This document shows, one piece after another, positions 1,568 to 29,490 of a stretch of 30,246 bases of DNA. The position numbers and the translations under genes are program-made. Source of the stretch: Falciphora oryzae. Lineage: Eukaryota > Ascomycota > Sordariomycetes > Magnaporthales > Magnaporthaceae. The notes below the pieces were generated by a model. It did not search any database. It was not told the DNA's origin and worked only from the letters and a program-made list of their open reading frames with translations. The DNA lies in contig JNVV01000033.1 of NCBI GenBank assembly GCA_000733355.1, positions 269,430 to 299,675 of the forward strand, written 5' to 3'. Every line of letters begins with the position of its first letter. Position 1 is the stretch's first letter.

Positions 1568-2545
1568 ATGTCCGGATTAGCTAATTCGGACGACAACGAG
1601 CGCAAGGAGTAAAAGATCCCGGATTAGGAGCTTTTAAACGCACTTAAGGATTTTGGTTTGCCGAAAACTGTTTTCGCCGTATGCGATTTACAATTTTACG
1701 ACGAGCAGAACTTTATTTTAAAATGCTTACCAAACGACGCATTTAACGAGCGCTGGAATATATGGATTATTAAAACGATAATCGCGAATAAACTATATAA
1801 AGGCGAAAACCTATTTGCTACCTATTTCGAAAATTTTAAAAGATGGACCTAGTAACATTTTGAGGATATCGACGTCCGGATTACATAAGCGTTTAAAGCC
1901 TTTTTAACCGAGCGAAAGATCACTTTCCCAGGCCATATAACGCTTAAAACCATTATTCGTTTCGCAAAATTCTTCGCAAAGATAACGGTTTAAAACGCAG
2001 CGATCGAGAGAATATAAAACCCCCAATTTCCCGATTACAAAACGAACGTAAAAATCGAGGATAATTTACTAGTTAAAGCTTTTATTTCGGATTGAACCTC
2101 CCCGTTACCGCTTTTTTTAAACCTTAAACAGTTAATAAGCGAAATACCGATTTCGCGATCCTAAAAACTAAATCGCGGTAAACCGACGGCGGGTGGAACC
2201 GACTTACAACTAAGCTTACTAACCCAACTTTAGCCGATTTCACTATTACTTCGATAACCAAAAGAAAAAAGGTTTACAAATTATAACGATTTCGGTAACC
2301 TTTTCCAAAAACAAACGAAACCTACGGCCGCGGCGGTTAGCTATAAACGCTACTACCAGGCGTATTTAAAAGCCTAGGCGCGGTTAACTGACGGAATAAC
2401 GCGCTAACGATTACGCTTTAAAACCTTAGTGCTAACCTGGTACGAAATAACACCTCCACTACTATTTAACTACTGGAAGCTCCCACCGGTTGAAATCCCT
2501 AATGCTATAATCGATATAAGCATAATAAAAGCGTTTAAACAAGCA
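1568..2545 (+). pseudogene. copia copy 1 gag (N-terminal part), broken
   Basis: The start ATG at 1568 begins MSGLANSDDNERKE, matching the start at 15215 in copy 2. The frame is then broken by RIP-type stops, for example TAA right after NERKE and TAG soon after. The recognisable segment CDLQFYDEQNFILKCLPNDA (about 1680-1742) is shared with copy 2. The frame is continuous through an AAAAGAAAAAA tract at 2260-2270, where copy 2 has only ten A's and shifts frame. Gag is cut at 2545 by the MITE; the rest of gag and the protease are absent. Between the LTR and the ATG (1236-1567) lies a leader with an imperfect repeat of a motif like CCCCGACTTGCYAGCA (around 1296, 1412 and 1490). Confidence 0.85.
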
Positions 2546-3248
2546 ACGTGGTTTATAAGCGAGTGCCACACCCAAGCGAGTGCCACACCCAAGCGAGTGC
2601 CACACTTCAAAATCTCATATTAAACGGCGTTTTTTTCAATTAAATAACTCGCTCAATTTGGAGCTAAATTCTACCAAAATTAAAACAGTTAACGTGGTTC
2701 ACAAGCGAGTGGCGCACACAAGCGAGTGGCGCACTTCAAAATCCCATACTAAACGCGGTTTTCGACATCCTTGCTAAATCGCCCAATGTGTATCCGAATT
2801 AGATGAAATTTTAAAATTAAGGTTTTAACTATGTAGCCGATTTTATGTAATTATCTCCAATTTTATAACCTTAACCTGGGCGAGATATAAAGAATTGCGC
2901 TAATTTAACTCCTGCATTTATAATATCTCACCTGGGTTAGGGTTATAAATTTGAAGATAATTACATAAAATCGGCTACATAATTAAAACTTTAATTTTGA
3001 AAGTTCATTAAATTTGGACCAGAATTGGTGGAGTTACAGCGAGTTAAAAAAACAGCGTTTAGTATGAGATTTTGAAGTGCGCCACTCGCTTGTGTGCGCC
3101 ACTCGCTTGTGAACCACGTTAACTGTTTTAATTTTGGTAGAATTTAGCTCCAAATTGAGCGAGTTATTTAATTGAAAAAAACGCCGTTTAATATGAGATT
3201 TTGAAGTGTGGCACTCGCTTGGGTGTGGCACTCGCTTATGAACCACGT
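2546..3248. mobile_element. MITE A: palindromic TIR element (pogo-type termini)
   Basis: The two ends are inverted copies starting ACGTGGTTYATAAGCGAGTG and carrying 17-bp direct repeats AAGCGAGTGCCACACCC (three on the left, two on the right). The arms (about 2546-2689 and 3122-3248) are near-perfect inverted copies down to the centre, so without MITE B it is a 273-bp palindrome. It has no coding capacity. The terminal 20 bases are nearly those of the pogo transposon at 12722, so it was probably moved by a related transposase. TA follows the right end (3249-3250), but CA, not TA, precedes the left end (2544-2545). The flanks match copia copy 2 positions that are 1,151 bp apart (16191 and 17343), so a deletion accompanied or followed the insertion. 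Confidence 0.88.
2692..3119. mobile_element. MITE B nested at the exact centre of MITE A
   Basis: A 428-bp TIR element bounded by TA on both sides (2690-2691 and 3120-3121). The ends read ACGTGGTTCACAAGCGAGTG and carry two copies of AAGCGAGTGGCGCACAC. Much of the interior is also an imperfect inverted repeat (about 2820-2895 against 2925-3000, including ATTTTATGTAATTATCT and its complement). No reading frame of note. Its insertion site is the central TA of the MITE A palindrome, ACAGT-TA-ACTGT. Confidence 0.9.
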
Positions 3249-3250
3249 TA

Positions 3251-12224: not shown

Positions 12225-12719
12225 CGCTAGGCCCGGTAAATTACGGAAGGTACCTGCCTAAAAGGCACTGGCACTAACGGCACCCGAAGCACCAGCCTTT
12301 AAACGGCGAAGGCGACCCCCGCGCCAAATAGCAACGGCATTCCTAGCCCCAAAAAAGAAGGAATCCTTACGTTTAGCGCTCCAATACCGATAGGAGGGCA
12401 AAATTAAAGCTCCCGGACGCCCATTTAAAAAGTCTGATTGGTTTGAAATCGAAGCACTCCTCGCCGCCGAAGTGATCAAACCGATCAAATTAAGCGGCAT
12501 TGGCAGCGCGAAAGTTTTTAGGTCCCGCTTTGTTAAAAAAGTTAAAAGCACCAATTCGATCCCTTATAAAAAATCGAGATTTGTGGTATAAAGATATAGC
12601 GATTGGGAAAAGAAAAGCCTTTTTACCTAGTCCCCTACGATTATACGATGCAGCTAACGCCTAATCCTTACGCTTAGTCCGTCTTTTATAAAATAAGGCT
12701 TTATGCTAATGATTAAAGA
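12225..12719 (+). pseudogene. copia copy 1 pol: start of reverse transcriptase, broken
   Basis: This is the continuation of copy 1 after the gypsy element. It reads KAPGRPFKKSDWFEIEALLA, then VIKPIKLSGIGSAKVFRSRF, then STNSIPYKKSRFVV, which is the N-terminal RT region of fungal copia polyproteins, and it aligns base for base with copy 2 at about 18790-19280. TAG/TAA replace Gln or Trp codons. It stops at 12719, where the pogo transposon is inserted; the next copia base is 28588. Confidence 0.88.
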
Positions 12720-12819
12720 TAACGTGGTTTACAAGCGAGTGACGCACACAAGCGAGTGACGCGTTTTCCATCGCAACTCGCGTCTCCCACTTCCAACCTC
12801 AATTTTTTAACAACTACAA

Positions 12820-14380
12820 ATGGCATCGACATCTAACGAAGCTAAAATTGTTCTTGCCATACGGGCAATTCAATCTAATGCACAATTAAGTGTGCGTTCG
12901 GCAGCCAAAATTTACGAGGTTTTTAAAGCCACGTTACGTTGCCGACGCGCCGGCCGACCTGCTCGACGCGATATAATGCCCAATTCCCGGAAATTAACGG
13001 AATCCGAAAAGGAAACGCTTGTTAAATACATACTCGAGCTAAATTTTTGCACATTTCCTCCCCGGCTTTTTGGTGTTAAAAATATGGCCAACCGATTGCT
13101 CGCCGAACGCGACGCGCGCGCCGTTGGCAAAAACTGGGTCGCGAACTTCGTTAAGCGCCGCGCAAAGCTCGGTACGCGTTAGATTCGAAAGTACGATTAC
13201 CAAAGGGCTAAATTCGAAAATCCCAAGCTTGTTTTTGCGTAATTCAACTTTATACGGAATATTGTGGCTAAATATAGCATCCTAAATAACGATATTTATA
13301 ACTTCAACGAAACCGGCTTCCTTATAGGTATAATCGCGGCCGTTATAGTTATTACAATATCGGAAGGCCGTAATAAAGCAAAACTGGTCCAGCCTAACAA
13401 CCGGAAATAGGCTATAGTTATTTAAAAGGTTAACTATTGCGGTTAGGCGATCCTTCCTTTCATTATCGTTAAAAGGCAGTACTACTTAGCCAATTGGTAC
13501 TCGGAAACCGACCTTTTACGCGATTGGGTTATCGCAACAAACGCTAACGGGTGGATTACGAACGAGCTCGGCCTGGAATGGATCCAGCATTTCGATAAAC
13601 ACATTATATCGCGTACGAAAGGCACACATTGTTTGTTAGTGCTAAACGGATACGAAAACTACCATTCGACGGATTTCGAGCTTTATTGCCAAAAACACAA
13701 CATTATTACGTTTTGCATGCTTCCGTATTCGTTTCATTTCCTTCAGCCGCTTGACGTTAGGTGCTTTAGCCCAATGAAAAAAGCGTACGGTCGACAAATC
13801 GAGGACCTAATAAGGTCGCACGTTAACTACGTGACCAAGGTCGAGTTCCTTTCGGCGTTTAAAGCGGCATTTTTTAACTTTATAACTGAGGGAAACATCC
13901 GAAAAGGCTTTCGAGGGGCTGGCCTTGCTCCTTTTAATCCGGATTCGGTTTTGGAAAAGCTGGATGTAAAGCTACGAACTCCAACTCCCCCGAGGACGCC
14001 TTTAAACGACCTTAAACCTTGGACTTCCAAAACGCCCCGGACGGCTAAGGAAGCAATTTCGTAATCCGAACATATTAAAACTCGGATCTCCAATTACTAA
14101 AGCAGCTTTCCAACATCTATGCTAGCGGCTATAAACCAATTTGCGAAAAGGGCGAAAGCAATTATACATCGGGTTAACCTTTTAAAAAAAAAGTGCTTTA
14201 AACTACGAAAGGCGAACGAAACATTAAGCAAACGCCGAAGGGCCAAAAAAACACGTATCCGATTTGGAAGGTCACTTACCATCAACGAAGTACGAAATGT
14301 TCTGGACCAGTAAGAGCTAGATGGATAGTTACAGTAAAAAATGCGCGATTATAAAGGTTAGGAAAAGAGGGCGACGACGA
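12820..14380 (+). pseudogene. pogo/Fot1-type DDE transposase (main part), broken
   Basis: One frame can be read from the ATG at 12820. It begins MASTSNEAKIVLAIRAIQSN and continues LSVRSAAKIYEV, the helix-turn-helix (psq) domain of fungal pogo-like transposases. A Tc5/CENP-B-like DNA-binding domain follows (RRAGRPARRDIMPNSRKLTE, then KNWVANFVKRRAKLGTR), and then the DDE_1 domain. In-frame stops lie at 13180, 13240, 13408, 13423, 13444, 14062, 14098 and beyond 14311. The first catalytic Asp (NFDETG in the family) is Asn at 13306; the second (LVLDG) is Asn at 13645; the third (QPLDV) is kept at 13753. Both losses are G-to-A. A basic, Lys/Arg-rich region follows (about 14119-14260). The frame is cut at 14380 by element X and resumes at 28384. 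The protein is inactive. Confidence 0.93.
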
Positions 14381-14528
14381 TAGTCTCAGTAGCTCAAACC
14401 AGATAAGGGGCGAAGGTCACGCAAATCACTTTTTCTCCACATCCAACCATATTATTAATTCAGCCAATCACAATCCCCACACAACTTCGCCGCCATCTGG
14501 TCTAAGGTCGTATAATGCGAAAAATGGC
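14381..14528. promoter_or_regulatory. Left terminal region of element X
   Basis: This stretch holds the TIR and about 130 bases of non-coding sequence before the first plausible ATG of the DUF6589 gene at 14529. It is expected to carry the promoter, but no clear TATA box is seen; motifs such as CCAATCAC (about 14463) are CCAAT-like. Confidence 0.45.
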
Positions 14529-14579
14529 ATGCGATTCTAAAATCCCACCCAACCTCCAATTTACCAAAATTACCATTCT
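14529..14579 (+). pseudogene. N-terminal fragment of the DUF6589 gene of element X
   Basis: The ATG at 14529 begins MRF, then TAA (probably a former CAA), then NPTQPPIYQNYHS. The last codon of the fragment, TCT (14577-14579), belongs to the target-site duplication ATTCT of copia copy 2, and the frame continues unbroken on the far side at 22416. The start is chosen because it is the first ATG in that frame after the TIR; splicing or another start is possible. Confidence 0.55.
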
Positions 14580-14879
14580 TGTTAAATTGCACTAGCCTGT
14601 GCAAGCAATCGGCAAAGGCCAAAAAGAGTCGGATCCTCCGGTCCCGTAATCTCTGATCACGGGATCCGAGGACCCGCAAGCCCGCGGAGGTTGGGAGCAG
14701 GGGAAGGCCCCTTTGGTGATCTGGATCGTATATATATAGCCTCCCTTCTGCTCCCTCTCTAGCAGATAAATTCCTTTCCTCTATGTGCACAAGAATAAAT
14801 TAATCCTCTAATATAAAAGATCATTGTTCACCTTCTTTGAAAATCTCCGAGCCCAACAGGAATACCACTCCTACCAACA
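14580..14879 (+). repeat. 5' LTR of copia copy 2
   Basis: Begins TGTTAAATTGCAC (TGTTGGATTGCAC in less mutated copies) and ends CCTACCAACA. It contains the inverted repeat around GATCACGGGATCC that is deleted in copy 1, and a TATATATAG box at about 14733. The sequence after it (ACACTAATCAATATTG, palindromic in copy 1) includes the primer-binding region. Confidence 0.95.
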
Positions 14880-15214
14880 CTAATCAATATTGCCCTAGGG
14901 CAACATAAAGAAGCAAAGTAAAAGGTCCTTTTGGAAACCCCGACCTGTCCTGCAAGCCAGAGCGGTTTCCGACTGGATCTAGAGCAGGAAACCCCCAATC
15001 TCCCGCTCGGTAGCGCATTCGAGGAAGCCCGGCAAGATTTTTTTAGAAACCCCGACCTGTCCGGCAGGCTCGAGCGGTTTCCGGCTGAAAGATTTGACGA
15101 TTTTCGCGAAGGGCGTTGCGTGATCCCCGGAAGCCCCGACCTATCCTGCAAGCTCGAACGGCTTTTGGATCAAAAGATCACCCCAGGCAATATCGCTTAC
15201 CAACCCCCGATAAC

Positions 15215-18200
15215 ATGTCCGGATCAGCTAACCCGGACGATAACGAGCGTAAGGAGTAAGAGATCCTAGATTAGGAGCTCTTAAACGCACTCAAGGACTT
15301 TAGTCTGCCGAAAACTGTCCTCGCCGTGTGCGATTTACAGTTTTACAACGAGCAGAACTTTACGCTAAAATGCTTACCAGATAACGCATCCAACGAGCGC
15401 CAAAACACCTGGATCATTAAAACAATAATCGCGAATAGACCATACAAAAGCGAAGACCTATTTGCTGCCTACTTTGAAGATTTTGAGGGATGGACCCAGC
15501 AACACTTTAAAGATATTGATATCCGGATCACACGAGCGTTTAAAGCCTTTTTGATAAAAAGAAGGATCACCCTCCCAGGCTATGCAACGCTCAAAATTAC
15601 CATCCGTTTCGCAAGATTTATTACGGAAACGGCGGCACAAAACGCGGCGATCGAGAAAACATAGAACCCCCAGTCTCCCGATCACAAAACGAACGTGAAA
15701 ACCGAGACCAGTCAACCGGCCAAAGCCTTCACTTCGGACCAACCCCCTCAGTCACCGCCCCTTTTAAACCCCAAACGGTCAACAAGCGAGATACCGATCT
15801 CGCGATCCCACGAACCAAGTCGCAATAATCCTACGACGGGTGGAATTGGCCCATAGCTAGATTTACCGACCTAACTTTAAGCAACCCCACCATTGCTCCA
15901 ACAACCAAAAAAAAAAGGTTTACAAATTATAACGATCTTAATAACCCTTTCCAAACACAAACGAAACCTACGGCCACGGCGGTCAGCCATAAACGCCACC
16001 ACCAAACGTACCTAAAAGCCCAGGCGCAGCTAACCGACGGAACAACGCGCCAACGATCACGCCTTAAAACCCCAATGCCAGCCCGGTACGAAACAACACC
16101 TCCACCACTATCTAACTACCGGAAGCTCCCACCGGTTAAAATCCCTAATGCTATAATCGATACGAGCACAATAAAAGCGTTCAAACAAACATAGGATAAA
16201 AAGCACAGCTACATAAAAAAACAATACGATATCCTTAACGACAAAATCCTATTTTTCACAAACACATGCGAAATGCTTAGGATTCCTTTTCCATAACTTT
16301 ATGCGCTTTTCCTATTAACCTTACGGGGCCGTACTACTTGGTATTTTATTTTTAAAATAAGCAGAGGTTATACCTTTAAAGCGATCTACCTAGCCCTCCA
16401 AAAGCACTTCGATACTAAAGTCAATAGATAATAGTATTATACAAACTAAAGCTCGATCACCTTTCAAACTATACGTTCTAAAAGCGGAAACGCAAATAAA
16501 TCCAATATGGAAATACTACAAATCCTGCTCGACAAATTCCAAATCTGCCAACGAGCATTAGGACCTGCCTACCAAAAAGATCACCAACTCGTAACGAGCA
16601 CCATCCGTGCAATCCAAAAAGTTCCTAAGCTAAAAATAGCCCTTTCCAAACCCGAAAAAACCTTTAAAAGCTTGGCCTCCCAGCTTAAAAGTACGATACA
16701 AATAAAAAAAAACGTCAATATATCAAGCATCCACTTTGTGGAACGACGGTTCGGGAACGCTACTCGCCCCGATCACCGCACAAGCACTCGAAACAACTTC
16801 CGATCCGGAAAACCCGGGAAGCGAGAGCTAAAGTGCTAAACGTACGGCAAACTAAAACATCGCTCCAAAAATCACACGCCCAAGGAACAAAAGCAAGCTA
16901 AAAAGCTGTGGAGACGAAGGCGAAAAGCTCGCGGCGAGCCGAAAAAGGGATACAAACAATTCCTCGCAACCTACGAGCCTGGTAGCAGCGATAAAAAAGA
17001 CCAGGAAACCGCGTCTAAAAATACCCCCGATCACATAACAGATAACGAATATAATCCAGCAAACACCCATTTTATAACACCAGCCACGGCAACATACCTT
17101 GCCGACGAGGCCTTCCTACACCGCCTCCACGGTACTAGAGCGCTGAGCTTAAACAAAAAAAAACCCACGGTACCAACAAAGCAAGTACTTATCCAATATA
17201 TGCTCACAACCACCAACAAATAGTACGGCATCATCCCCGACACCGGCGCGGCAGAAGTATCAACTGCCGGAACGACCCAATTCCGAACTCTACAACGCCA
17301 TCTACCTAATCTTTCTTTAGATACCACCAGGAAGAAAAGACGCGTGCGCTTTGGATCCGGAAAAACCATTTCCAGCATAAGAGAAATCATCCTACCGACC
17401 CCGATAGGCACTATTACATTCCATGTAGTGCCTACGCCAACCCCGTTCCTCCTTTGCATCAACGACATGGATACGCTCGGGGTATACCTTAACAACACCC
17501 GCAACGAGCTAATAACCAGGCAAAGCAAGCGCGTTCCGATTATAAAACGCTACGGCCACCCTTAGTTCTTTCTAAACGAGGTCAGCCACGTTACGACAAG
17601 CATCTCGTTTATAATAAAACCAAAAAGCGCGGGAGCAACGTATCTTACGGAAACTAAGCTCAAACGCGTTTATAAACGCTTTAAACACCCCTTTATCGAA
17701 CAACTTTAAACCGTTTTCCAACGAACTAGCCACGAAACTAATCGCAACGCTCTGGAAATAATCAAACGCGTGTGCCATTTTTACCAAATCAAAGCACCCG
17801 CACAACAACGGTTCCGGTTCACGCTTAAAGAAGATATCGATTTTAATTATAAAATTATTATTAACGTGATGCATTTAAACGGCAAACCAATATTTTATGT
17901 AATCGATACGAACACAACATTTAACGCCGTAACGTTTTTAAAAGATATAAACGCAAAAAAAATTTAAAAAGCTTTCAAACGCTACTAGTTAGATATTTAT
18001 CTGGGGCCCCCAAACGTTATATCTCACGACGCAAATACCAACTTTACAACGAACGAATTCCAAACGGAAACAAAGCTTTTTGGGATCACCTACAACCAAA
18101 TCCCAATCGAAGCGCACTAATCGATAAGCAAGGTGAAAAAATACCACGGACCATTCCGCCGAGCCTACAAAATAATCCGGAAAAAGTGCCCTAATTTGCA

Positions 18201-20502
18201 CCCCGATTCCGTGCTTTAAAAAGCTATCAAAGCCATAAACGACACGGCAAAACCTAACGGCCTCATCCCCACGCTGCTCGTTTTCAAAACAATACCACAT
18301 ATTAATAACAACTCTCCCCTAACGAAAAGCCAGGTTTAAAAAGCGGCAGCGATTACCAAAGCTATAAAAAAGTTCCAAAAGCTCCATGCCAAACGCAAAG
18401 TACAAAACGCCTTAAATACGCGCAACGGGCCAAGCACGAAAAACACTTTGCCCAACGCGCTAGCTTTAGGAACAAAAGTGTTGGTGCATAGGGAAAACGG
18501 CGAGTAAAAAAAACCGTACAAAGTCCTTTAGGTGGCAAATAACGAAATGACGATCGAGACTGTCAACGGCCCTTCAACGTTCCGAAACACTGCCTACAAG
18601 CCATACCACAAAACGTAGAAGCAAAAAACTGCAACAACGGAAAAACAATTAGCCCCGTTCGAATATCCACCATAAACGGAACCAAAACGGAAAAGGAAAC
18701 CGCTAAAAATCACGAAAACAATAGCGGCAAATGCGTCCAACGATAGCGAAACCCTTTCCGAAATCAAAATTACACCCCCACCCGCACCCGTCAAACCCGG
18801 TAAACCACGAAAGGCACCTGCCTAAAAAGCACCGGCACTAACGGTACCCAAAACACCAGCCCCTAAACGATAAGAACAACCCCCGCGCCAAACAGCAACG
18901 GCATTTTTAGCCCAAAAAAAGAAAAAATCCTTACGACTAACGCTCCAATACCGATAAGAGGGTAAAATCAAAGCTCCCGGACGCCCATTCGAAAAATCCA
19001 ACTAGTTTGAAATCAAAGCATTTTTTGCCGCCGGAGTAATCAAACCGATCAAATTAAACGGCGTTGGCAACGCGAAAATCTTTGGGTCCCGCCTCGTCAA
19101 AAAAATTAAAAGCACCAACTCGATCCCCTATAAGAAGTCGAAACTTATGGTGCAAAGATATAGCGATTAAAAAAAGAAAAGCCTCCTTACCCAATCCCTA
19201 ACGATCATGCGATACAGCCAACGCCTAATCCTCGCGCTCAGCCTGTCCCTCATAAAACAAAGCTTTATACTAATAATCAAAGACATTAGCCAAACGTACA
19301 CCCAATCTGAAATAGAGCTGCAAAAGGAGGTTATTCTACGCCTTCCTAAAGAACTAAAACATCGGTACCCAAAAAGCACGGCCCTTCAACTAATCAAACC
19401 GTTTTACGGATTAGCCAAGGCAGAGCTGCATTGGTTCGTCACGTACCAAAAGCATTATAAAAAACGACTAAACTGTTCCACTTCGGAATATAATCCGTAC
19501 TTGCTTATTTCAAAAATCGGCCAAAGCTTTGGAATAATTAGCATACAAACCGACAACATTTTAAATTTAAACAACGCCGAATTTATACAAAGGGAAGAAA
19601 CAGCGCTCTAAAAAACCGGGTTCAAAACGAAACCAAAATCGATCCTACACCCCGGAGACGAAAGCAACTTCAACGGGTGCAAGATTTTAATCAAACAAAA
19701 CGCTGTTACTATACAGCAAAAAGGACAAACAAATCGTCTGGAGCTAGTAACTACGGGATCAAACGATACCCAACAGCAATACGTCGTACAACGCGCACGA
19801 GGGGCATATATAAGCTCGATATACCAGCCAAAAACCGCTTTCAACTACTCTATAGCTGCACAAACCAAAAATCCTATAAACACAAACGTATCTAAGCTCA
19901 ACAAAAGGATCCAATAGCAAATCGACAACGCAAACAAAAGCTTGAACTACGTGCAATTAGATCTGCAAACAGCCAGCCTATATATATTTATAAACGGGTC
20001 CTTCGCCAACAACCAAAACCTTACTTCACAAATCGGCTTTATAATCGTCCTAGGCAACGAAAGAGCTACAAAGCAGGAAAACAGCTTCCGGGTTACCGGC
20101 AACATCCTGCACTAAAGCTCCGTAAAGTGCAAAAAGGTTATAAAAAGCGTTCTAACGAACGAGATCTACGGCATGGTTAGCGGTTTCGATACTAGCTATA
20201 TCCTAAAAACAACGCTCGCAACGATCTGTAAAAAGCTGGATCTGCCCCCCTGCAAATTAATCATCTGCACCGACAGCTTCTCGCTCTACCAATACCTTGT
20301 TCAACTTAAAACTACTACGGAAAAACGCCTCATAATAAATATCATAGCTCTCCGCGAATCCTACAAAACGCGCGAAATTAACGAAATTAAATGGATCGCA
20401 AAGGCAAATAACCCGGCCAACGCCATAACAAAAAAGCTGCCAAACAAAGCTTTAAAAAACCTTGTAAGCAGCAATTTAACTACCGTAAAAATAGAAGGAT
20501 AA
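15215..20502 (+). pseudogene. copia copy 2 gag-pol, broken
   Basis: A single long frame of about 1,760 codons starts at the ATG at 15215 (MSGSANPDDNERKE). Gag covers about 15215-17200, with MEILQILLDKFQICQRALGP at 16507 well preserved. A run of ten A's (15907-15916) replaces AAAAGAAAAAA of copy 1 and shifts the frame. Protease DTG lies at 17239-17247 (GIIPDTGAAE). Integrase follows (HLNGKPIFYVIDTNTTFNA at about 17872, DANTNF, then ISKVKKYH, where the catalytic Glu of VEKYH is Lys). RT spans about 18960-19620 (LILALSLSLIKQSFILIIKD, then LQLIKPFYGLAKAELHWF); the catalytic TDD is TDN at 19549-19557. RNase H is near 19980 (FINGSFANN, with the first Asp changed to Asn) and ends at TAA 20500. Most changes are G-to-A on this strand. 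It is not functional. Confidence 0.93.
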
Positions 20503-20705
20503 ATGAAACGGGATCACAAATAAAAAAGAGCCAAAAAATGCACACAAAATCGTTTTCCATAGTACCAAAACGCCAAAATCCCTAAAAACAACGCAAAAAT
20601 CGACAAAACAAAAATGCTCAAATTAAAAAAGCAACAAACGACCATATCGAAACAACAAACGATCTCACAACCAAACTTTTTCCAAATATCCCGTCAAACT
20701 CTCCT
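20503..20705. other. Spacer between gag-pol and the antisense gene of copia copy 2
   Basis: A-rich sequence without a supported + strand gene. On the minus strand the antisense frame may extend into it if the TGA at 20706-20708 is a former CGA (RIP). Confidence 0.4.
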
Positions 20706-21700
20706 TCATTCCTCCTCCTCGTTATTTCTACCATCTCCCAGCCAAACAGCTTCGTACATCCTCAAAGCGGCCGCGCGGCCCGCCGCCTTCCGCTCTAATC
20801 GCGTCATCATTAGAAAGTCGGCATTAGCATCCTCCTAATCCCCATCCTCAACCGCCAGCTACAACATGCACTTAGTAATAATACGCCACTTATCAAAGGT
20901 CTAAAAATCACAAAAAAACACGTTAGCAAACGTACCCAAAACACTAAACTAAAAAAACAAACTTACCTTCTTATCGCGATCATCGCGACCTTATTCCACT
21001 ATAAACTTAAACGCCGGACGTAGCGCGATCGAAGAACTAAAAAATAATTAAAACGAGCTTTAAAAAAGATAAAAAAAAATCGAAATGCTCACATAAGCTG
21101 ACAGGTATGGCCCAACGCGCACAACCAACAGCGCTTCTTAACCGGGACTATGTCCCGACAGCCATCGCCCTCCTTCATCTTACCAACGAAAGCGGACTTC
21201 AAGCAACCCAGGCAAAGGACAGCGCGTAGGGCGCCCTTTCCACCGCGCGGACCCGGTATAAAAACCGTCTTACCACCAATAGCAAGCCTGACGATCTTGA
21301 TAGCCGCCTTCTTCTTCTTATCCGACGGAGCAAGCGCAAAATCGGCGTTCTCGAAATCAAAATCATCATCGAACGGGTTAAGGAACTAATCGACAACGGC
21401 GTCGGCAGCCGCGGGCGCAAGCGCGACCGGAGGTGCAAAAATAGCCATCGTAAGATCGAAAGCCTCAGCGGCAAGGCCTTAGAGCCGCTTTAAGGATCTG
21501 CCACCGCTGCGCGCGACAGATCGAAGCTTCCGAGCCTTCTTAGCGACCGCACCAGACTTGGTATTGCCCTTCTTGTTGCCTATAGTGACGAAAGCGACCA
21601 AGAAATCAACCGACAAAAAACGGATCGAACAAAGCGGGTAAAAGATGCTGCAAACAGAGGGCAATACAAGCGGACGATCTAAATCAACGAAATTTACCAA
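20706..21700 (-). pseudogene. Antisense spliced zinc-finger-like protein of copia copy 2, broken
   Basis: Minus-strand frame between pol and the 3' LTR. A lysine-rich segment (NKKGNTKSGAVAKKARKLRS) leads, across one TAA, to MAIFAPPVALAPAAADAVVD (ATG at 21448) and then to a Cys-rich motif: CLGCLKSAFVGKM, C, then RCWLCALGHTC, i.e. C-x2-C, C, C-x2-C-x3-H-x-C. Intron 1 (21092-21037, 56 bp) has GTGAGC and TTTTTTAG. Intron 2 (20966-20901, 66 bp) has GTAAGT, the branch-point sequence GCTAAC and TTTTTAG. Both keep phase, so the protein reads on through FDKWRIITKC and RLERKAAGRAAALRMYEAVW to a TGA at 20706. The true end may be further. TAA/TAG inside are RIP-type. The role is unknown; a nucleic-acid-binding protein made from an antisense transcript is one possibility. 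The splice signals make it a real former gene rather than a shadow of another frame. Confidence 0.7.
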
Positions 21701-22110
21701 ATCAAATTATCCAACCTTTTAAAAGCCGGAAAGAAAGCTCTTTATAAAACCTGGACCCGGCCTACAAAAAGTCCTTAATCTGCGTTCCTATTATCCCGCA
21801 TTAAGTCACAACCTAAATAGCCCGTTAAGGTTATTCACTGCTATTGTGCTCTCTAATTGCACCACCCACTACTCTGCCCGCGCACCGCAAGCCAAATCCG
21901 GTAGACCCCATCACGTCATCGTTCCTATTATCGCTATTGAGAGCGACGAGCCGCTTTGAGAGCGGCTATTCACTCTTTTCCTAATCCGGACTACTTGGTC
22001 CGGAAATTCCCTTTGTTATTTACCTTACAAGATCTAATAAAGCTTGGATCACGGGATCTGTCACGTAAAAGGATCTCCCAATTGCCTGCACAAAAAGAAA
22101 GAGTTGCCAG
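21701..22110. other. Region before the 3' LTR of copia copy 2
   Basis: No supported gene. It contains two near-perfect hairpins (GAGCGACGAGCCGCTTTGAGA / GAGCGGC near 21940-21965; TCCGGACTACTTGGTCCGGA at about 21986) and ends in a purine run AAAAAGAAAGAG (22092-22103), which could be the polypurine tract that primes plus-strand DNA synthesis, seven bases before the LTR. The promoter of the antisense gene would be expected here. Confidence 0.45.
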
Positions 22111-22410
22111 TGTTGGATTGCACTAGCCTGTGCAGGCAATCGGCAAAGGCCAGAAAGAGTCGGATCCTCCGGTCCCGTAATCTCTAATCACGGGATCCGA
22201 GGACCCGCAAGCCCGCGGAGGTTGGGAGCAGGGGAAGGCCCCTTTGGTGATCTAAATCGTGTATATATAGCCTCCCTTCTGCTCCCTCTCTAGCAGATAA
22301 ATTCCTTTCCTCTGTGTGCACAAAAATAGATTGATCCTCTAATATAAAGGATCATTGTTCACCTTCTTTAAAGATCTCCGAGCCCAACAGGAGTACCACT
22401 CCTACCAACA
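22111..22410 (+). repeat. 3' LTR of copia copy 2
   Basis: TGTTGGATTGCAC ... CCTACCAACA, 300 bp. Downstream ATTCT (22411-22415) pairs with 14575-14579, which assigns this LTR to copy 2. It is less mutated than the 5' LTR. Confidence 0.95.
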
Positions 22411-22415
22411 ATTCT

Positions 22416-25400
22416 CCTTTCCTCCACCACATTACGCAATTCGTACCTACCGGTTTCTATTTAAAATCTGCGCTTACGAAAATCGAAATTTTAAACGTTA
22501 TCGCCATATCGTCTCCTTCTTCTCTTTCTTCATTACCGGCTTTCCTTTCCGATTAACCGCCGCAACCGGCTCCTAATGCCACGTTTCCCACATCGGATCT
22601 CACAATTTTAGCAACATCCCCACCTCTCCCACCGGCCGACTCCGACTCCAACTCCGACTCTAACGACGAAAGCGACGGCAATAATACGCTTTCGAACCTT
22701 TTCCCCTACTTAACGCCTCGGCCGGCTACTTTCGATTCACCTTTAACGGCGCGGAATTCCCGCCTACAAACAGCTCGCCGTTTAAAAGCCCCCGCGTCCT
22801 TCCAAAAGCCCCGCCACTCCTATCCATTTAACGACGATTCCGACCCCCTAAAAAAGCCCGACTCCCCGACCTATAACCTAGTACAAAAAACGCTGCAGTT
22901 TTAGCGCAGTTTAAAGCCACAATCTTCGTTCCCTAAATTCTTCAAACAATGGGCGTGTCAACGTCGCACCGATAGCAAACGCAATAGACCTCGCCTTTTC
23001 CAACTCCGCTTTTGTTTGCAAAACCCCAACGTTCAACATGCTTTTTTCAAAACTGGCATCCAAATCCTGCTCGACGGCGAAAGCGCGCCTCCAAATATAT
23101 ACTACGCCTTTATCCGCCAAAAGCTTAACGCCCTTACCGCGTTCAACCCGTTCGATAATTTCGACCCGGCACAGTTTAGTGAAGGAGACGCCCCTTGCAC
23201 CGCCAAAGACATCTGCGACGTTTCCTGGGTACAAAACTAGCTGTTGCAATGCGACTCCCGCCTTTAAAAATATGCGCCCTTGCTTAACCAGTTACTTACT
23301 ATTGTTATGGTTAATACCCGAGCCGATTGGGACTTTTATGGCCCCAACCGTCGAACCCCCAAACCTACACCTAAAGGGGCGGCGACCCCAAGGGGGACAG
23401 TTACCCCAGGTGGGGCGGCGACCCCTGGAGTGGCAGCGACCCCTGGAAGGGCAGCGACACCTAAAGGGGCAGCAACATTTGGAGGGGCGGCAACAACTAC
23501 AGCTACAAACTTTAGCCCCCGTTATATGATTGCAAATATTATAGCACACGCGCGGGCGCTTAAAAAAAGCAACTATTTAAAGCGGGTTTTTGGGATTTAT
23601 TAAGTAAATAGTAGCGTTCCGCAACGGGTAATAAGTGTCCTTTTAAAGTTCGGGGTTAACTCTTCCTATAAGGTTACCAAAAACCAAATAACTTCCATAG
23701 TTAATAGGGCTATAATACGTCTGCCAACTAAATAATAACCGATTTTATCTTTTGTATTAATATGCTTTCTTTTATAAAAAAATATCCAACGTATTACCCT
23801 TAACCCTAGCTTAATATTTGTTTACGACAACTTCAACTTTATAAACCGTGTCCAAAACTTTAGACAGGGCCGCAAAAACGTTATGCGAAACATCACCACC
23901 TGCCTCGCCATCGGGAGCCCCGACATCGTCCGCTATACCCAATTACAATAGCATATTATAGTACCGTTCAAGTTGGAATGGCTCCGAAGCCCATATATGT
24001 TAGTCCCTCCTATTGCGAAACCGATGTGCTCCTAATACCTTTTCCGGCATAAGGTGCTGCACCACCTTTTCAAAGGCACACATGCCGACAGGTTTCCTGC
24101 TTGCCAGTTCCCCAACGTCTTTCGTGTTAACACCCCAAAGTCCTATATTATCTAAACCTTAGCCATTATGGAAAGCGAGGGCGAGTTTGGCGGTATTCTT
24201 CGGGTTTATAAACAACTTTTCCAGGGGATTTTAGGTTTTAAACCCGGCACATTTAACTACAATAACGTCCTTATCCTATTCCATAGCGACTAGAAAACAA
24301 CATCCTTTATCAAACATATCCAATCCGCTAATATCGAATGTATTACACCTTTTAACTGTAAGCAATAGCTCCTTCCAATCCCTGCCTTCTTTTACGTCCA
24401 AATCAATTTTATCCACTACGTTTGGAAAAAGTTTTATCTTTTAGTTAAAGCCGATATTTTGGGTTTCGGCCGTAGTTAAAAGATATCTAGTTCCAAGCTA
24501 AAGTTTTACCACGCGCTTCAACTCCTCCAAAATAGCTACCGTGCACGCGTTTTTGCCATAAGCATAAGCGTATTCTAAAAGGATGGCAAACTCCCCAAAG
24601 GGCAGGGATTTATCCCATCCGCCGTACAAGAAGCGTTTGCCTCCGTTTCCCCGGAATACATCGAATCCCTCCAAACCAGGGTCGACAAAGAGACGTTTTC
24701 AGCATCTGCCACTACAGGACGGAACCCCAACACGAACAGTCCCGTCAATATCCCTTTCCGGTTACAAAGTCGGTACCTCCAGGCTATATAGCTGCTTTGG
24801 ACTGTTAACGAAGCTGTACGATAAAGGGATTTCGGTATCCTCCAATAATACATTCCCTTTATTATTTTCTTTTTTTATGGGTGCAAAGCCAAAAACTACG
24901 GTCCAGAAATGCTATATTTAGCTTAGCTCATATATCTAAGAGTCATAAACGAGCTACTCCGCACAGCTATCTTTCGGTTAGGCTTTGTTCGTTGCACTAC
25001 GGCTGGCAGTGGATTTAAAGCTATCGATTTCGCCATTAAGCACCTTAATAAGGCGTTCTTTTTCGACATTAAATATAACAAAAATTCGACCTACGACATT
25101 TAAGCTACGTTTAAAGACTGCGCTGCCTTTAAACCTTTAGGAGTAGTAATACGCAAAGCATTAAAATTTGCATTTGGCTAGTATAATAATGCCAAACATA
25201 CCGTAGCGTTTACCAAGCAAAACGTTATGCAATATGCGTATTTATTTGTTAATAATGGATGGGGTAGCAGATACGACCAAGCGAAGCAAGATTCCGAGTT
25301 TAACGCCCCGGCATTATTCGCAAACGGGATCAAATATATGCACAATGGCAAACTAGAAGCTTTTAACCGCACCATCGTGCGGCCCGCTGATATTTTTTCC

Positions 25401-25514
25401 CAGCAAGGGTTAGCAAATGCCGAAAAGGGGGTAGTTAATATAATTATCGAGAATCGGGAGGGCGACCGGGGATATTATTTAGGGGGGAACGAAGATAATG
25501 GAGCAGACGAATAG
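22416..25514 (+). pseudogene. DUF6589-type protein of element X, main part, broken
   Basis: One frame runs from the copia junction to TAG 25512-25514, with about 20 in-frame TAA/TAG, most readable as former CAA/CAG/TGG. The first 170 codons are Pro/Ser/Asp-rich. A tandem TP(K/G)GAA repeat (about 23361-23500) follows, then a domain I recognise as DUF6589: VYDNFNFINRVQNFRQGRKN (23820 on), VLILFHSD with KT after a stop (about 24270-24300, where the family has GDQ), LLPIPAFFYVQINFIHYVW (about 24370), and KNSTYDI ... TFKDCAAF (about 25077), ending in an acidic tail. DUF6589 proteins are common in fungi and have no assigned function that I know of. The Asp residues in YDNFN and in the GDQ-like motif would suit an RNase H-fold (DDE) transposase; that is my inference. 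The gene is convergent with the RecQ gene; stops are 21 bases apart. Confidence 0.8.
23361..23500 (+). repeat. Tandem ~18-bp coding repeat, (T/A)P-x-G-A-A units
   Basis: About seven imperfect copies of an 18-base unit like CCTAAAGGGGCGGCGACC, encoding a six-residue repeat TP(K/R/G)GAA within the DUF6589 gene, in the linker before the DUF6589 domain. The GC content is high and the repeat itself carries few RIP changes. Confidence 0.85.
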
Positions 25515-25535
25515 GAATTAAGCTAGCCCCTAAAT

Positions 25536-28199
25536 TTATAAGGATTGAGACAAAGTTCGATAGGCCGTGCAGTCGCCTTTTGGACAAAGGCCCACTAAAT
25601 ATAGCAGTCGCTGGTAAGATCATCGTCTTTTAAATGAGGCCGATGGTTTGGGGTTTCCTGGAAATACCAAAGTACGTTTCCCTTTTGCGGTTGCCCTTTT
25701 AGGCTGTAAAGCCCCGACGTCGATCTTTTTGCGTTTATTAGTTTGGTATTCGGCGTATGCTGCTATGCCTTTAGCTTTAATAGTTTCGCATTTTTATACC
25801 AGTAGCTAGCCGTAAGCTTCCAACTAATGCTGGCATATATCCCCCCCGATAGCCGGTACCCGTCGGCATAGGTCGTGGACATCCCGGATAATTGTGCGGG
25901 ATGTTTTAATAAACAGACTAAGTTTTACGGCAATAGCAGGTTCCAGCATCCATTCGCCGGGGAAGTCAAACCATTAGTCGTTATCAGGGGCGATAATATA
26001 AATCGCGAATTCGGAAGCGAATAACATTAACTTTTTGTAAATAAACCATTTTTTGGTATGCCCATATACGCTTTTGTCTTTTTTCGCAATAGCTGTTACC
26101 GGAGGGAGTCGTTCAAGTTCGTGGTGACATGCGTTACAGCAAAATGTGTACTAAACGTTAAACAGTTGCACCTTTTGCAATAAATCAAGCATTTCCTACC
26201 TAAAGCATTTGGCATTAGCGAATTTAAACATTTCGGGATGTTCGGCCCTTAGCTTCGCGCGCCGGCGCTAATCTTTTTAAATCCAATGGTTGTATTGTTT
26301 CCCTAAGAAAATACCTAGTTCTTCGTTAATTTCGTCGTTCGTAATGGAGGATAAATGTCCCCCGGCTATGCTAAATTCCACGTTAAAAATGGAAAATCGC
26401 GCTTGTAAGTAATCGGAACTAAACAACTATAATTCGTCTGCATTTGTATTTGTACCAAATTCTGCCAACTCGAAGCGCAAACTGCTGGATGAAGCAGGAA
26501 TATAGGTTTTTTTGGAGCCCCGTTTAGGTTTCGTCTTTTTAGGGACCGCAATGCCCTGGGTGTCAAAATACCAGTAGGGGGCAAAAAAAATAAGCGGTAC
26601 CTTGCCTTATATCGGATCGGGACGCCCTGCCAAACCGCTGTGATAAATCCGATACGTCCAATGAAATCGGTGCCCTAAATTGCACCACGCGCATTACGTT
26701 TGGAATATCCATTCCCATACCCAAAGATACGGTAACTAGGATAATACGGATAGGAAAATCGGTACGCTTGAACGTGTTATACAAAAGGCGTTAATTTGTT
26801 AGTGGGGTAAGGGAATTGTAAATGCCAATGGTGCGGATTGCAGTAGCCCTATTAACTTTTTGGGAAGTAAGGTGTTAGAAGAGAGCATGGCGGGCAGCCA
26901 CGAGCTTAGACCTGTTGTTTATGTAAACAATGGTTTTAGGGATGCTTTAAATTAAGTTGTATGGCCGGACGTGGCTTAAAAGAAAGAACAAAGGCTGGTA
27001 GTCGTTGCTTAGCTTGTTCCTTTCTAAAGCTTGTAAAACGATAGATATATCCGGCCTATTAACAAACGTATGGATAATTCGGAGTTAATGTTCGCTTAGG
27101 CCGAGCTGACGGAAGCCGGCATGGGAAAGGACAAAGTCCTTTGCTTTTTCGGTTAATGTAGCAATGCACCCAAAAAATGGGATAGCTATAGGGATTGCGG
27201 TTTGGATTAAATGCAAATTAGGGTAGGACGTGCGGAAATCTTTCCACTAATAGACGGTATAAAGCTCGTCGATAGCTAAAAAAACGATGTGCTAGCTGAA
27301 CTCGGGGTGGCGGAAAAGGGAAAAAAACCGAAAATTTGTAGCTTGCTTAAGGCCGAGGAGAATATGTGTGTATTGCGTCGCTTTTTGGTAGTTCCAAATG
27401 TTTGCGTCTTGCAAAGGGATGTTAATATATCTTTTCTTATATTTATATTTGGGAAATGGAATACCTTACGTATAATTTGGTCGATAAAGATAGGGTTAGC
27501 GAAAGGGAAACCTGCAACCACTTTTGCTTGTTCGTCCCCCAACTTGCTAAACGGGACGATCTAAATAGTAATATGCTTATTCCTAATAACAAATACGGCC
27601 TGGAACACAATGCTTTTGCCATATCCTATTTTAGCAATGAAAATTGTATCCCCTAGTTTATAAACGATACGCCGGATACATTCGATCTAGTCAAGCTTTG
27701 GAATACGCGGTTCCCGATGCGCTAGCGCCCCCTAATTCAAAAGAGACGTAGTAACAGCCTCTAAAAACCGCTTTTGCAATAAGGTATCCTATGCGCGTGA
27801 AGTATACTCGTACAATTCAGCAATGACCTGGCGGAAAGGCGCATTATCAACCTGCTCATCTGCAAAGTTTTTGCTCTAAGAAATGGCCGTAAGCAGATAA
27901 AACAAATTGTCTGGGCGAGCCAATGGCCAGGAAATCCCCAACTCCAAATTTGGGGCCGCGGACATCATTAATAGTAAATCTAGCATAGGGGTCGCTGGAA
28001 AGGCGATTCCCAAAACCAACGAAAATGCACCTAGGCGGTTAAAAAAAATGTTTATAATCGAAATGCAAAAAAACAAAAAACACCATTAGATACGGAATCT
28101 CGAGCTTACTTCCAACATATAGTTTAAAATTAGCAAAAGTCGGCTTTCATAAAGATATTTTGGAATGCTTTTTTTGATATTTTCGTTTTGTATGGAGGT
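25536..28199 (-). pseudogene. RecQ-family DNA helicase of element X, broken
   Basis: A 3'-to-5' helicase of the RecQ family, read on the minus strand. N-terminal region: YLYESRLLLILNYMLEVS (about 28120), then VTTSLL and IPKLD-IECIRRIVYKLGDT. Walker A reads IAKIGYGKSIVF (27612-27635 core; family TGxGKS, Thr to Ile). Motif Ia-like IVPFSKLGDEQ is at about 27550. The DE-box reads VFLAIDELYTVY (27262-27273 core). Motif III is PFFGCIATLTEK (about 27180). The C-terminal helicase domain has KTIVYINNRSK, VTVSLGMGMDIPNVMRVVQF and motif VI QRFGRASR (26617-26640). A long C-terminal domain follows, ending at TAA 25536-25538. Two frameshifts are visible: one near 27420-27460, one in a run of eight A's at 26583-26590, after which AYFF-YWYFDTQGIAVP reads on. 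Many TAA/TAG are RIP-type. An intron may lie near 28030-28090. The start is not fixed. Confidence 0.88.
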
Positions 28200-28374
28200 T
28201 TCCAAAACCAACGGCAGAAAATCACCATGCGGTCTCAGACTTAAACCAAAAAAAGTCTGTAGCCCCACAATACAAATGCACGGGCCAGTAACTTGCGACT
28301 GAGCCACTTGGCGAGCCACAACCCACCGGAGGTGGGTTCCCTTTTTGTGGGTTAAGTCAAAGCCACTGAGACTA
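28200..28374. promoter_or_regulatory. Right terminal region of element X
   Basis: Non-coding end of X. It contains a perfect hairpin AACCCACC-GGA-GGTGGGTT (28320-28338), repeats of GAGCCAC (about 28300, 28313) related to the terminal GCCACTGAGACTA, and an internal inverted copy GGTCTCAGACTTAAACC (about 28230) of the TIR motif. These look like subterminal transposase-binding repeats, but that is inference. The RecQ promoter should also lie here. Confidence 0.5.
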
Positions 28375-28383
28375 CGACGACGA

Positions 28384-28477
28384 CGCGTCGGCGATGTGGC
28401 ACCTGCGGCAAAACCGGACACAATGCGCGCACCTGTCAGGAAGAAGTAGAAATGTCCGATATATATAGTTCCGAATA
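28384..28477 (+). pseudogene. pogo transposase C-terminus (CCHC zinc knuckle)
   Basis: Right-hand part of the interrupted transposase. After one copy of the 9-bp duplication is dropped, the frame from 14380 continues RRRCGTCGKTGHNARTCQEE: Cys at 28395 and 28404, His at 28419, Cys at 28434, i.e. C-x2-C-x4-H-x4-C. A zinc knuckle of this kind ends many fungal pogo-like transposases. The frame ends at TAG near 28474, which may be the natural stop or a RIP change. It is followed by about 100 bases and the right TIR. Confidence 0.88.
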
Positions 28478-28587
28478 GTTTAAATGGATTCCTGGCGTTG
28501 TTAGGTTGGCATGCGCGTCGATTAACCAAAGGTCGGGTGTGGGTGCGTCATTCGCTTGTGTGCGTCACTCGCTTGTGAACCACGTTA

Positions 28588-28801
28588 TTAGTTAAGCATA
28601 TACCTAATCCGAAATAAAGCTACAAAGGGAGGTTATTTTGCGCCTTTCTAAAAAGCTAGAATATCGGTACCTAAAAGGTACGGCTTTGCAGTTGATTAAA
28701 CCGCTTTACGGATTGGCCGAAATAGGGCTGCATTAGTTCGTTACGTACTAAAGGCATTATAAAAAACGATTAGATTGTTTCATTTCGGAATATAATCCGT
28801 A
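28588..28801 (+). pseudogene. copia copy 1 pol: reverse transcriptase middle, broken
   Basis: Resumes copy 1 after the pogo element. LQREVIL-like wording, then LQLIKPLYGLAEIGLH (about 28688) matches copy 2 at 19320-19440. It ends at ATAATCCGTA, the target of the solo LTR; the empty site is visible in copy 2 at 19490-19500. Confidence 0.88.
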
Positions 28802-29101
28802 TGTTGGTAGGAGTGGTACTCCTGTTGGGCTCGGAGATCTCCAAAGAAGGTGAACAATGATCCTTTATATCAGAGGATCAATCTATTCTTGTGCACGAAG
28901 AGGAAAGGAATCTATCTGCCAGAGAGGGAGCAGAAGGGAGGCTATATATACACGATCCAGATTACCAAAGGGGCCTTCCCCTGCTCCCAACCTCCGCGGG
29001 CTTGCGGGTCCTCGGATCCCGTGATCAGAGATCACGGGACCGGAGGATCCGACTCTCTCTGGCCTCTGCCGATTGCCTGCACAGGCCAGTGCAATCCAAC
29101 A
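28802..29101 (-). mobile_element. Solo LTR of the copia family, inverted, in copia copy 1
   Basis: 300 bp from TGTTGGTAGGAG to GCAATCCAACA, the reverse complement of the family LTR. CCGTA flanks both sides (28797-28801 and 29102-29106), and copy 2 has the uninterrupted site. It shows few RIP changes: it keeps TGTTGGATTGCACTGGCCTG in full and a perfect CCCGTGATC-AGA-GATCACGGG hairpin. A solo LTR forms by recombination between the two LTRs of a full element. The open frames in it are not genes. Confidence 0.95.
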
Positions 29102-29490
29102 CCGTACTTGTTTGTTTTAAAAATCGGTTAAAGCTTTGGAATAGTTGGTATATAAACCGATGACATTTTAAACCTAAGTAACGCCAAGTTTATGCAAAAG
29201 GAGGAAATAGCGCTCTAAAAAACCAGGTTTAAAGCGAAACCGAAATCGATTTTATACCCCGGAAACGAAGGCAACTTTAACGGGTGCAAGATTTTGATTA
29301 GATAAAACGCTGTTACTATGCAGCAAAAGGGATAGGTAGATCGTTTGAAATTGGTAACTGCTGGATTAGACGATACCTAATAGCAGTACGTCGTATAGCG
29401 CGCACGAGGGGCATATATAAGCTCGATATGCCAGCTAAAAGCCGCTTTCGACTACTTTATGGCTGCATAAGCCAAAAATCCTATAGATAC
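29102..29490 (+). pseudogene. copia copy 1 pol: RT active site to RNase H start, broken
   Basis: Reads GIVGI, TAA, TDDILNLSNAKFMQKEEIAL; here the catalytic TDD (29156-29164) is intact, whereas copy 2 has TDN. Then KPKSILYPGNEGNFNGCKIL and RARGAYISSI(C)Q, the standard fungal copia connection region. Several TAA/TAG are RIP-type. Interrupted at 29490. Confidence 0.87.

Follow-up and report, generated by a model that had tools for sequence, protein, structure and literature searches.

A degraded transposon of Falciphora oryzae pairing a probable DUF6589 transposase with a RecQ-family helicase

We analysed a stretch of 30,246 nucleotides from the ascomycete Falciphora oryzae (contig JNVV01000033.1, hereafter C33; positions 269,430 to 299,675), which we call the window and which is part of a genome of 50.2 Mb in 123 contigs. 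Positions 14381-28374 of the window are occupied by an element, here termed X, that is a genuine terminal inverted repeat (TIR) transposon and one of many copies in this genome. We consider X to be, with good probability, a decayed member of a multi-copy cut-and-paste transposon family, most likely of the AcademH type, in which a DUF6589 protein serves as the RNase H-fold DDE transposase and a RecQ-family helicase as an accessory enzyme. What is new here is DUF6589 as the likely transposase of a probable AcademH element.

Borders and copies of element X

The two ends of X are alike over 14 bases with one difference, a perfect 9-bp direct repeat stands outside them, and a DUF6589 gene (+ strand) and a RecQ gene (- strand) converge between them, all as a prior reading made from the sequence alone (the sequence-only reading) had described (Table 1). 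The repeat consists of a single iterated triplet and is, taken alone, weak evidence for the borders. Removal of X with one repeat places the tail ...CGTCGKTGHNARTCQEE... in frame with the upstream DDE_1 part of the gene of a pogo-like host transposon; the claim that excision restores the frame of an unrelated transposase is thereby confirmed for this tail, across a stop-free stretch of 37 residues over the join, the host gene itself being broken by stops further upstream. Since joining the flanks restores the host frame, and since other copies show the 9-bp signature in unrelated targets, the doubt raised by the triplet repeat is removed.

The 14-base end TAGTCTCAGTRGCT has 29 exact occurrences genome-wide, against 0 for a reversed control. 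Of these, 21 are no more than 12 kb away from a cluster of DUF6589 or element RecQ matches, where chance would give about 0.6, calculated for DUF6589 clusters alone. When two mismatches are allowed, the end is found at 394 places and the control at 469, with no excess; because this search is no commoner than its control, only close end matches are informative. Among the first 100 places of the two-mismatch search, variants with a common TAGTCTCAG core include TAGTCTCAGTGGCT, ...TGACT, ...TGCCT and ...AGGCT. Eighteen pairs of ends were picked by the nearness of opposite ends, in most cases on either side of a match to DUF6589 or RecQ, and not by their duplications; they form a non-exhaustive set, with further possible pairs among the two-mismatch places, and the count leaves out three pairings that involve an internal or degenerate motif (L011, C35 and C16), none of which has a duplication. 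An exact 9-bp duplication flanks 14 of the 18 pairs, two more have one with a single mismatch, and two have none (C70 and C43), while exact 8-bp or 10-bp duplications were found in 0 of the 18. The 9-bp duplications differ in sequence from pair to pair, and mispaired left and right flanks agreed within one mismatch in 0 of 306 controls; the proposal to look for duplications of 8-10 bp around other copies has thus been followed, with a sharp result at 9 bp. In the tested pairs, the TIRs match over at least 9-14 bases, up to differences of the repeat-induced point mutation (RIP) type.

Six complete copies besides X measure 6084-7155 bp. Two of these, on C44 (L025) and C92 (L029), are both 6084 bp long with different 9-bp duplications, helicase frames that are 95% identical and an AGAGGCC variant at one end of each. 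A 1.5-kb copy (C16:215673-217204; L043) has ends of this kind, is flanked by a 9-bp duplication and is too short for both genes; therefore, movement in trans occurs. At its ends, this short copy resembles the copies on C35 and C69.

The DUF6589 protein and its helicase partner

The PF20231 (DUF6589) match in X spans 24087-25133 (+; 110.6 bits) and is interrupted by 10 stops, and the 5' exon of the helicase gene would lie nearer 28 kb, as other copies suggest. The TpA/ApT ratio is 1.12 in X versus 0.79 in copy L011, and we take this high TpA to have arisen in the manner of RIP. X is dead, with stops throughout both genes and a retrotransposon inside it. By contrast, the DUF6589 frame of L011 is open over 578 residues (180.5 bits), and that of L029 has an equal open length. 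A genome-wide search with PF20231 gave at least 47 matches, merged into 42 clusters, and no match in 14 control genomes. A RecQ match lies within 3 kb of 36 of the 42 clusters, about 0.3 being expected by chance, and the two genes are convergent in 36/36.

The comparison of the predicted DUF6589 structure with RNase H-fold transposases, which the sequence-only reading had put forward, revealed a resemblance to the Hermes transposase and a weaker likeness to RAG1. Transposases of Mutator-like elements (MULEs), Academ and KDZ are not among the structural matches listed, which does not thereby exclude them. The model and residue conservation together point to D319, D466 and E717, with E673 as an alternative, as candidate catalytic residues (numbered as in the relative P0001): D466 is kept in 18 of the 19 rows of the DUF6589 alignment and D319 in 13 of the 14 rows that cover its position. 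Pfam scans of the 578-residue L011 frame and of P0001 returned DUF6589 only, with no hAT or MULE model, and no other transposase family was detected in the four L011 frames scanned. The copies, their duplications and the predicted-structure match together support the earlier supposition that DUF6589 is the element's transposase as a probable one.

The closest solved structures to the element helicase are WRN and RecQ, and among NCBIfam models the RecQ family scores best, below cut-off. Of the Pfam models, Helicase_C exceeds its cut-off in L025 and pieces of DEAD stay below theirs in L011 and L025; in the full-length relative P0023, both domains pass. A loose pattern search recovered a cysteine pattern resembling the RecQ zinc module in 9 of 48 helicase rows, including the C92 copy and not the C44 copy. 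In a tree of the 48 helicases, one group of 16 rows with support 100/100 holds both element helicases from this genome, together with four helicases from contigs equal in size to the contig of a DUF6589 match; long branches outside this group are unsafe. The four size values common to both sets are 7473, 14770, 645570 and 97513 bases, accounting for 4/19 DUF6589 matches and 4/48 helicase matches in other fungi, and they are strong but indirect evidence that the gene pair lies on one contig there. The contig of 7473 bases, from Annulohypoxylon truncatum, apparently carries both P0001 and P0023. Comparison of the DUF6589 alignment with proteins yielded 7 proteins from the best-sharing 7993 candidates scored, one of them from Exidia (PF20231 at 342.8 bits), which we take to be a basidiomycete; no relative was found in the comparison with viral contigs.

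We propose that DUF6589 would bind the TAGTCTCAG... ends and cut the element out, and would then join it to the target through 9-bp staggered cuts, whose repair would leave the 9-bp duplication. RecQ may be an accessory enzyme for strand separation or repair, opening DNA at the ends or the target or processing the ends. Copies would decay afterwards, and short copies with intact ends would be moved in trans by an enzyme presumably supplied by other copies. This offers a probable function for a Pfam family so far of unknown function, and suggests that fungal DUF6589 "hypothetical proteins" are in fact transposases and can be treated as transposons in masking. With its sharp 9-bp signature and a gene order that is constant within one genome, the pair of helicase and transposase would also be a system for studying the role of helicases in cut-and-paste transposition.

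Nested insertions in the window and on contig C35

Table 1. Features of element X and of the layers around and inside it (window positions).
Feature	Position	Strand	Basis and remarks
Left copy of the 9-bp target duplication CGACGACGA	14372..14380	.	Exact match to 28375-28383
Left TIR TAGTCTCAGTAGCT, DUF6589 side	14381..14394	+	End comparison and genome copies
Nested long terminal repeat (LTR) retrotransposon, between left end and DUF6589 gene	14580..22410	+	LTRs begin at 14580 and 22111
Disrupted gene for DUF6589, the probable DDE transposase	22506..25514	+	Outer limits set by visual comparison with copy L011; assumed, degraded start codon
Broken RecQ-family helicase gene, matched part	25671..27408	-	Two slightly overlapping pieces; 18 stops over both
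Right TIR, TAGTCTCAGTGGCT on the - strand, RecQ side	28361..28374	-	End comparison and genome copies
Right copy of the 9-bp target duplication CGACGACGA	28375..28383	.	Exact match to 14372-14380
Pogo/Tc1-like host transposon interrupted by X, with inverted arms 12719-12762 and 28545-28588	12719..28588	+	HTH_psq, DDE_1; HTH_Tnp_Tc5 below cut-off

The retrotransposon within X has a 5-bp duplication of its own (ATTCT; 14575-14579 and 22411-22415) and is probably a Copia element, its RVT_2 match being weak and below cut-off. Parts of an outer retrotransposon copy are seen on both sides of the pogo-like element, with 12232-12531 matching 18796-19095 and 28587-28801 matching 19285-19499. The region 12232-29401 is probably a four-layer nest, in which a retrotransposon received the pogo-like element, this in turn X, and X the related retrotransposon with the ATTCT duplication; the outermost layer is drawn from repeat coordinates only. 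Between the matches to 19285-19499 and 19495-19794, which overlap by 5 bp, sits an inverted 300-bp stretch (28802-29102) that is 93-95% similar to the LTRs of the internal retrotransposon of X and looks like a solo LTR. Short repeats of the AAGCGAGTG type recur at the pogo-like ends (12708-12762 and 28512-28588) and in an inverted array at 2532-3250, which is perhaps a second relative of the pogo-like element.

The copy on C35 (62164-89625) is 27.5 kb long; its 9-bp duplication is exact and its DUF6589 frame is open. An insertion whose 128-bp direct repeats are 98% identical interrupts the helicase of this copy, and the roughly 11 kb between the two genes hold a DDE_Tnp_4 transposase, a Helicase_C frame, a 405-residue frame without a Pfam match and a further frame that matches SNF2 weakly, below cut-off. 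A giant cargo-carrying relative was considered for this copy and set aside, nested transposons being the simpler reading, albeit one unproven for the 11-kb part, which may itself be a nested transposon carrying genes that resemble helicases.

Classification and related transposons

AcademH reportedly goes back to Kojima (2020, Mob DNA 11:15), in a paper said to carry the words 'found in animals and fungi' in its title. In the parts of the literature drawn on here, AcademH elements encode a helicase and make duplications of 9 or 10 bp, and their difference from AcademX is said to seem tied to helicase versus nuclease (PMC10045372); they are given as low-copy in Basidiomycota, Ascomycota and Mucoromycota (PMC10799480). 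Because the length of the target duplication, the helicase and the host range all point there, we regard X as a likely member of AcademH, as judged from the description of that group. The sequence-only reading had held that no described transposon group has this make-up; as far as the cited passages go, this finds no support, two groups of helicase-bearing DDD/E transposons, KolobokH (PMC9587614) and AcademH (PMC10045372), having been published, and its idea of an unnamed group is probably wrong.

Several observations weigh against reading X as an AcademH-type element with a DUF6589 transposase. The AcademH label is drawn from published descriptions of that group. Six of the 42 DUF6589 clusters have no RecQ match inside 3 kb: for three, the nearest RecQ is 12 kb (C35, with insertions between), 16 kb (C72) and 9 kb (C69) away, and the other three, two on C30 and one on C36, are without a nearby RecQ. 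Conversely, 10 of 46 RecQ clusters are without DUF6589 inside 3 kb; four of these lone clusters (C6, C9:118733, C11 and C54:188826) combine low scores with open frames and probably represent host genes. Eight of the 29 exact ends are near neither gene, on contigs without a listed DUF6589 or element-RecQ cluster, and two of the 18 end pairs lack a 9-bp duplication, the C70 pair agreeing at 7 bp in 6 of 7 bases. As to the structure, no Foldseek match for the DUF6589 model reaches an E-value of 0.001, VIA merely re-ranks matches already given by Foldseek, and the model itself, built from 17 sequences, is moderate (mean predicted local distance difference test score, pLDDT, 68.6); a second model, of the Exidia protein (P0022; pLDDT 49.3), is too poor for comparison. 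The third catalytic residue is ambiguous, E673 and E717 each being present in 19/19 rows of the alignment and D713 in 18/19.

The alternative that survives best is an unnamed superfamily with a DUF6589 transposase and RecQ, resembling AcademH only in duplication length and helicase. Searches of the available literature found no paper naming DUF6589 or linking PF20231 to a transposon, the one paper returned for PF20231 being unrelated, and AcademH was matched by description and not by direct comparison; however, host kingdom, helicase and 9-bp duplication all agree with AcademH as presented in the passages cited (PMC10045372, PMC10799480), and we hold such a superfamily to be unlikely. It is equally doubtful, in our estimate, that DUF6589 is the DDE transposase family of a helicase-bearing group outside Academ, having a Hermes/RAG1-like core and a 9-bp duplication and occurring in ascomycetes and perhaps, given the Exidia protein, in basidiomycetes. 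An element of the hAT or MULE type whose transposase has diverged is very improbable: the best structural matches are to Hermes, a hAT transposase, and the predicted DUF6589 catalytic core would have the general fold of Hermes and RAG1, and MULEs can make duplications of about 9 bp, but hAT elements make 8-bp duplications, of which the X family has no exact instance in 18 pairs against its prevailing 9 bp, and the Pfam scans, which covered two L011 frames on the DUF6589 strand and P0001, yielded DUF6589 alone. KolobokH, a DDD/E transposon with RecQ that is so far known from fungi only, resembles the X family in its hosts and its helicase, and one rhodophyte Kolobok has its RecQ on the complementary strand (PMC9587614); yet, on the portion of that account used here, Kolobok makes TTAA-specific 4-bp duplications, whereas those of the X family are varied and 9 bp long in 14/18 pairs, which refutes a KolobokH assignment on the target duplication and leaves it hardly credible, and the KolobokH helicase lies downstream of the transposase domain, whereas that of X is a separate convergent gene (PMC9587614). 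That another transposase mobilises the pair, with DUF6589 and RecQ as mere passengers or as genes of the host, deserves next to no credence: the short C16 copy does show movement in trans, but the four L011 frames scanned contain no other transposase family, the gene pair is constant, convergent and internal, and the predicted DUF6589 fold is transposase-like.

Fungi also carry repeated subtelomeric RecQ helicase genes, according to the part of the source consulted (PMC4522978); these are like the X-family helicases in being repeated RecQ-family genes, whereas the latter lie within TIR elements beside DUF6589. AcademH, although described as low-copy where the X family is numerous, with 42 DUF6589 clusters, remains the group to which X is likely closest, as the X family likewise encodes a RecQ-family superfamily 2 (SF2) helicase, here on the opposite strand, makes 9-bp duplications and has TIRs.

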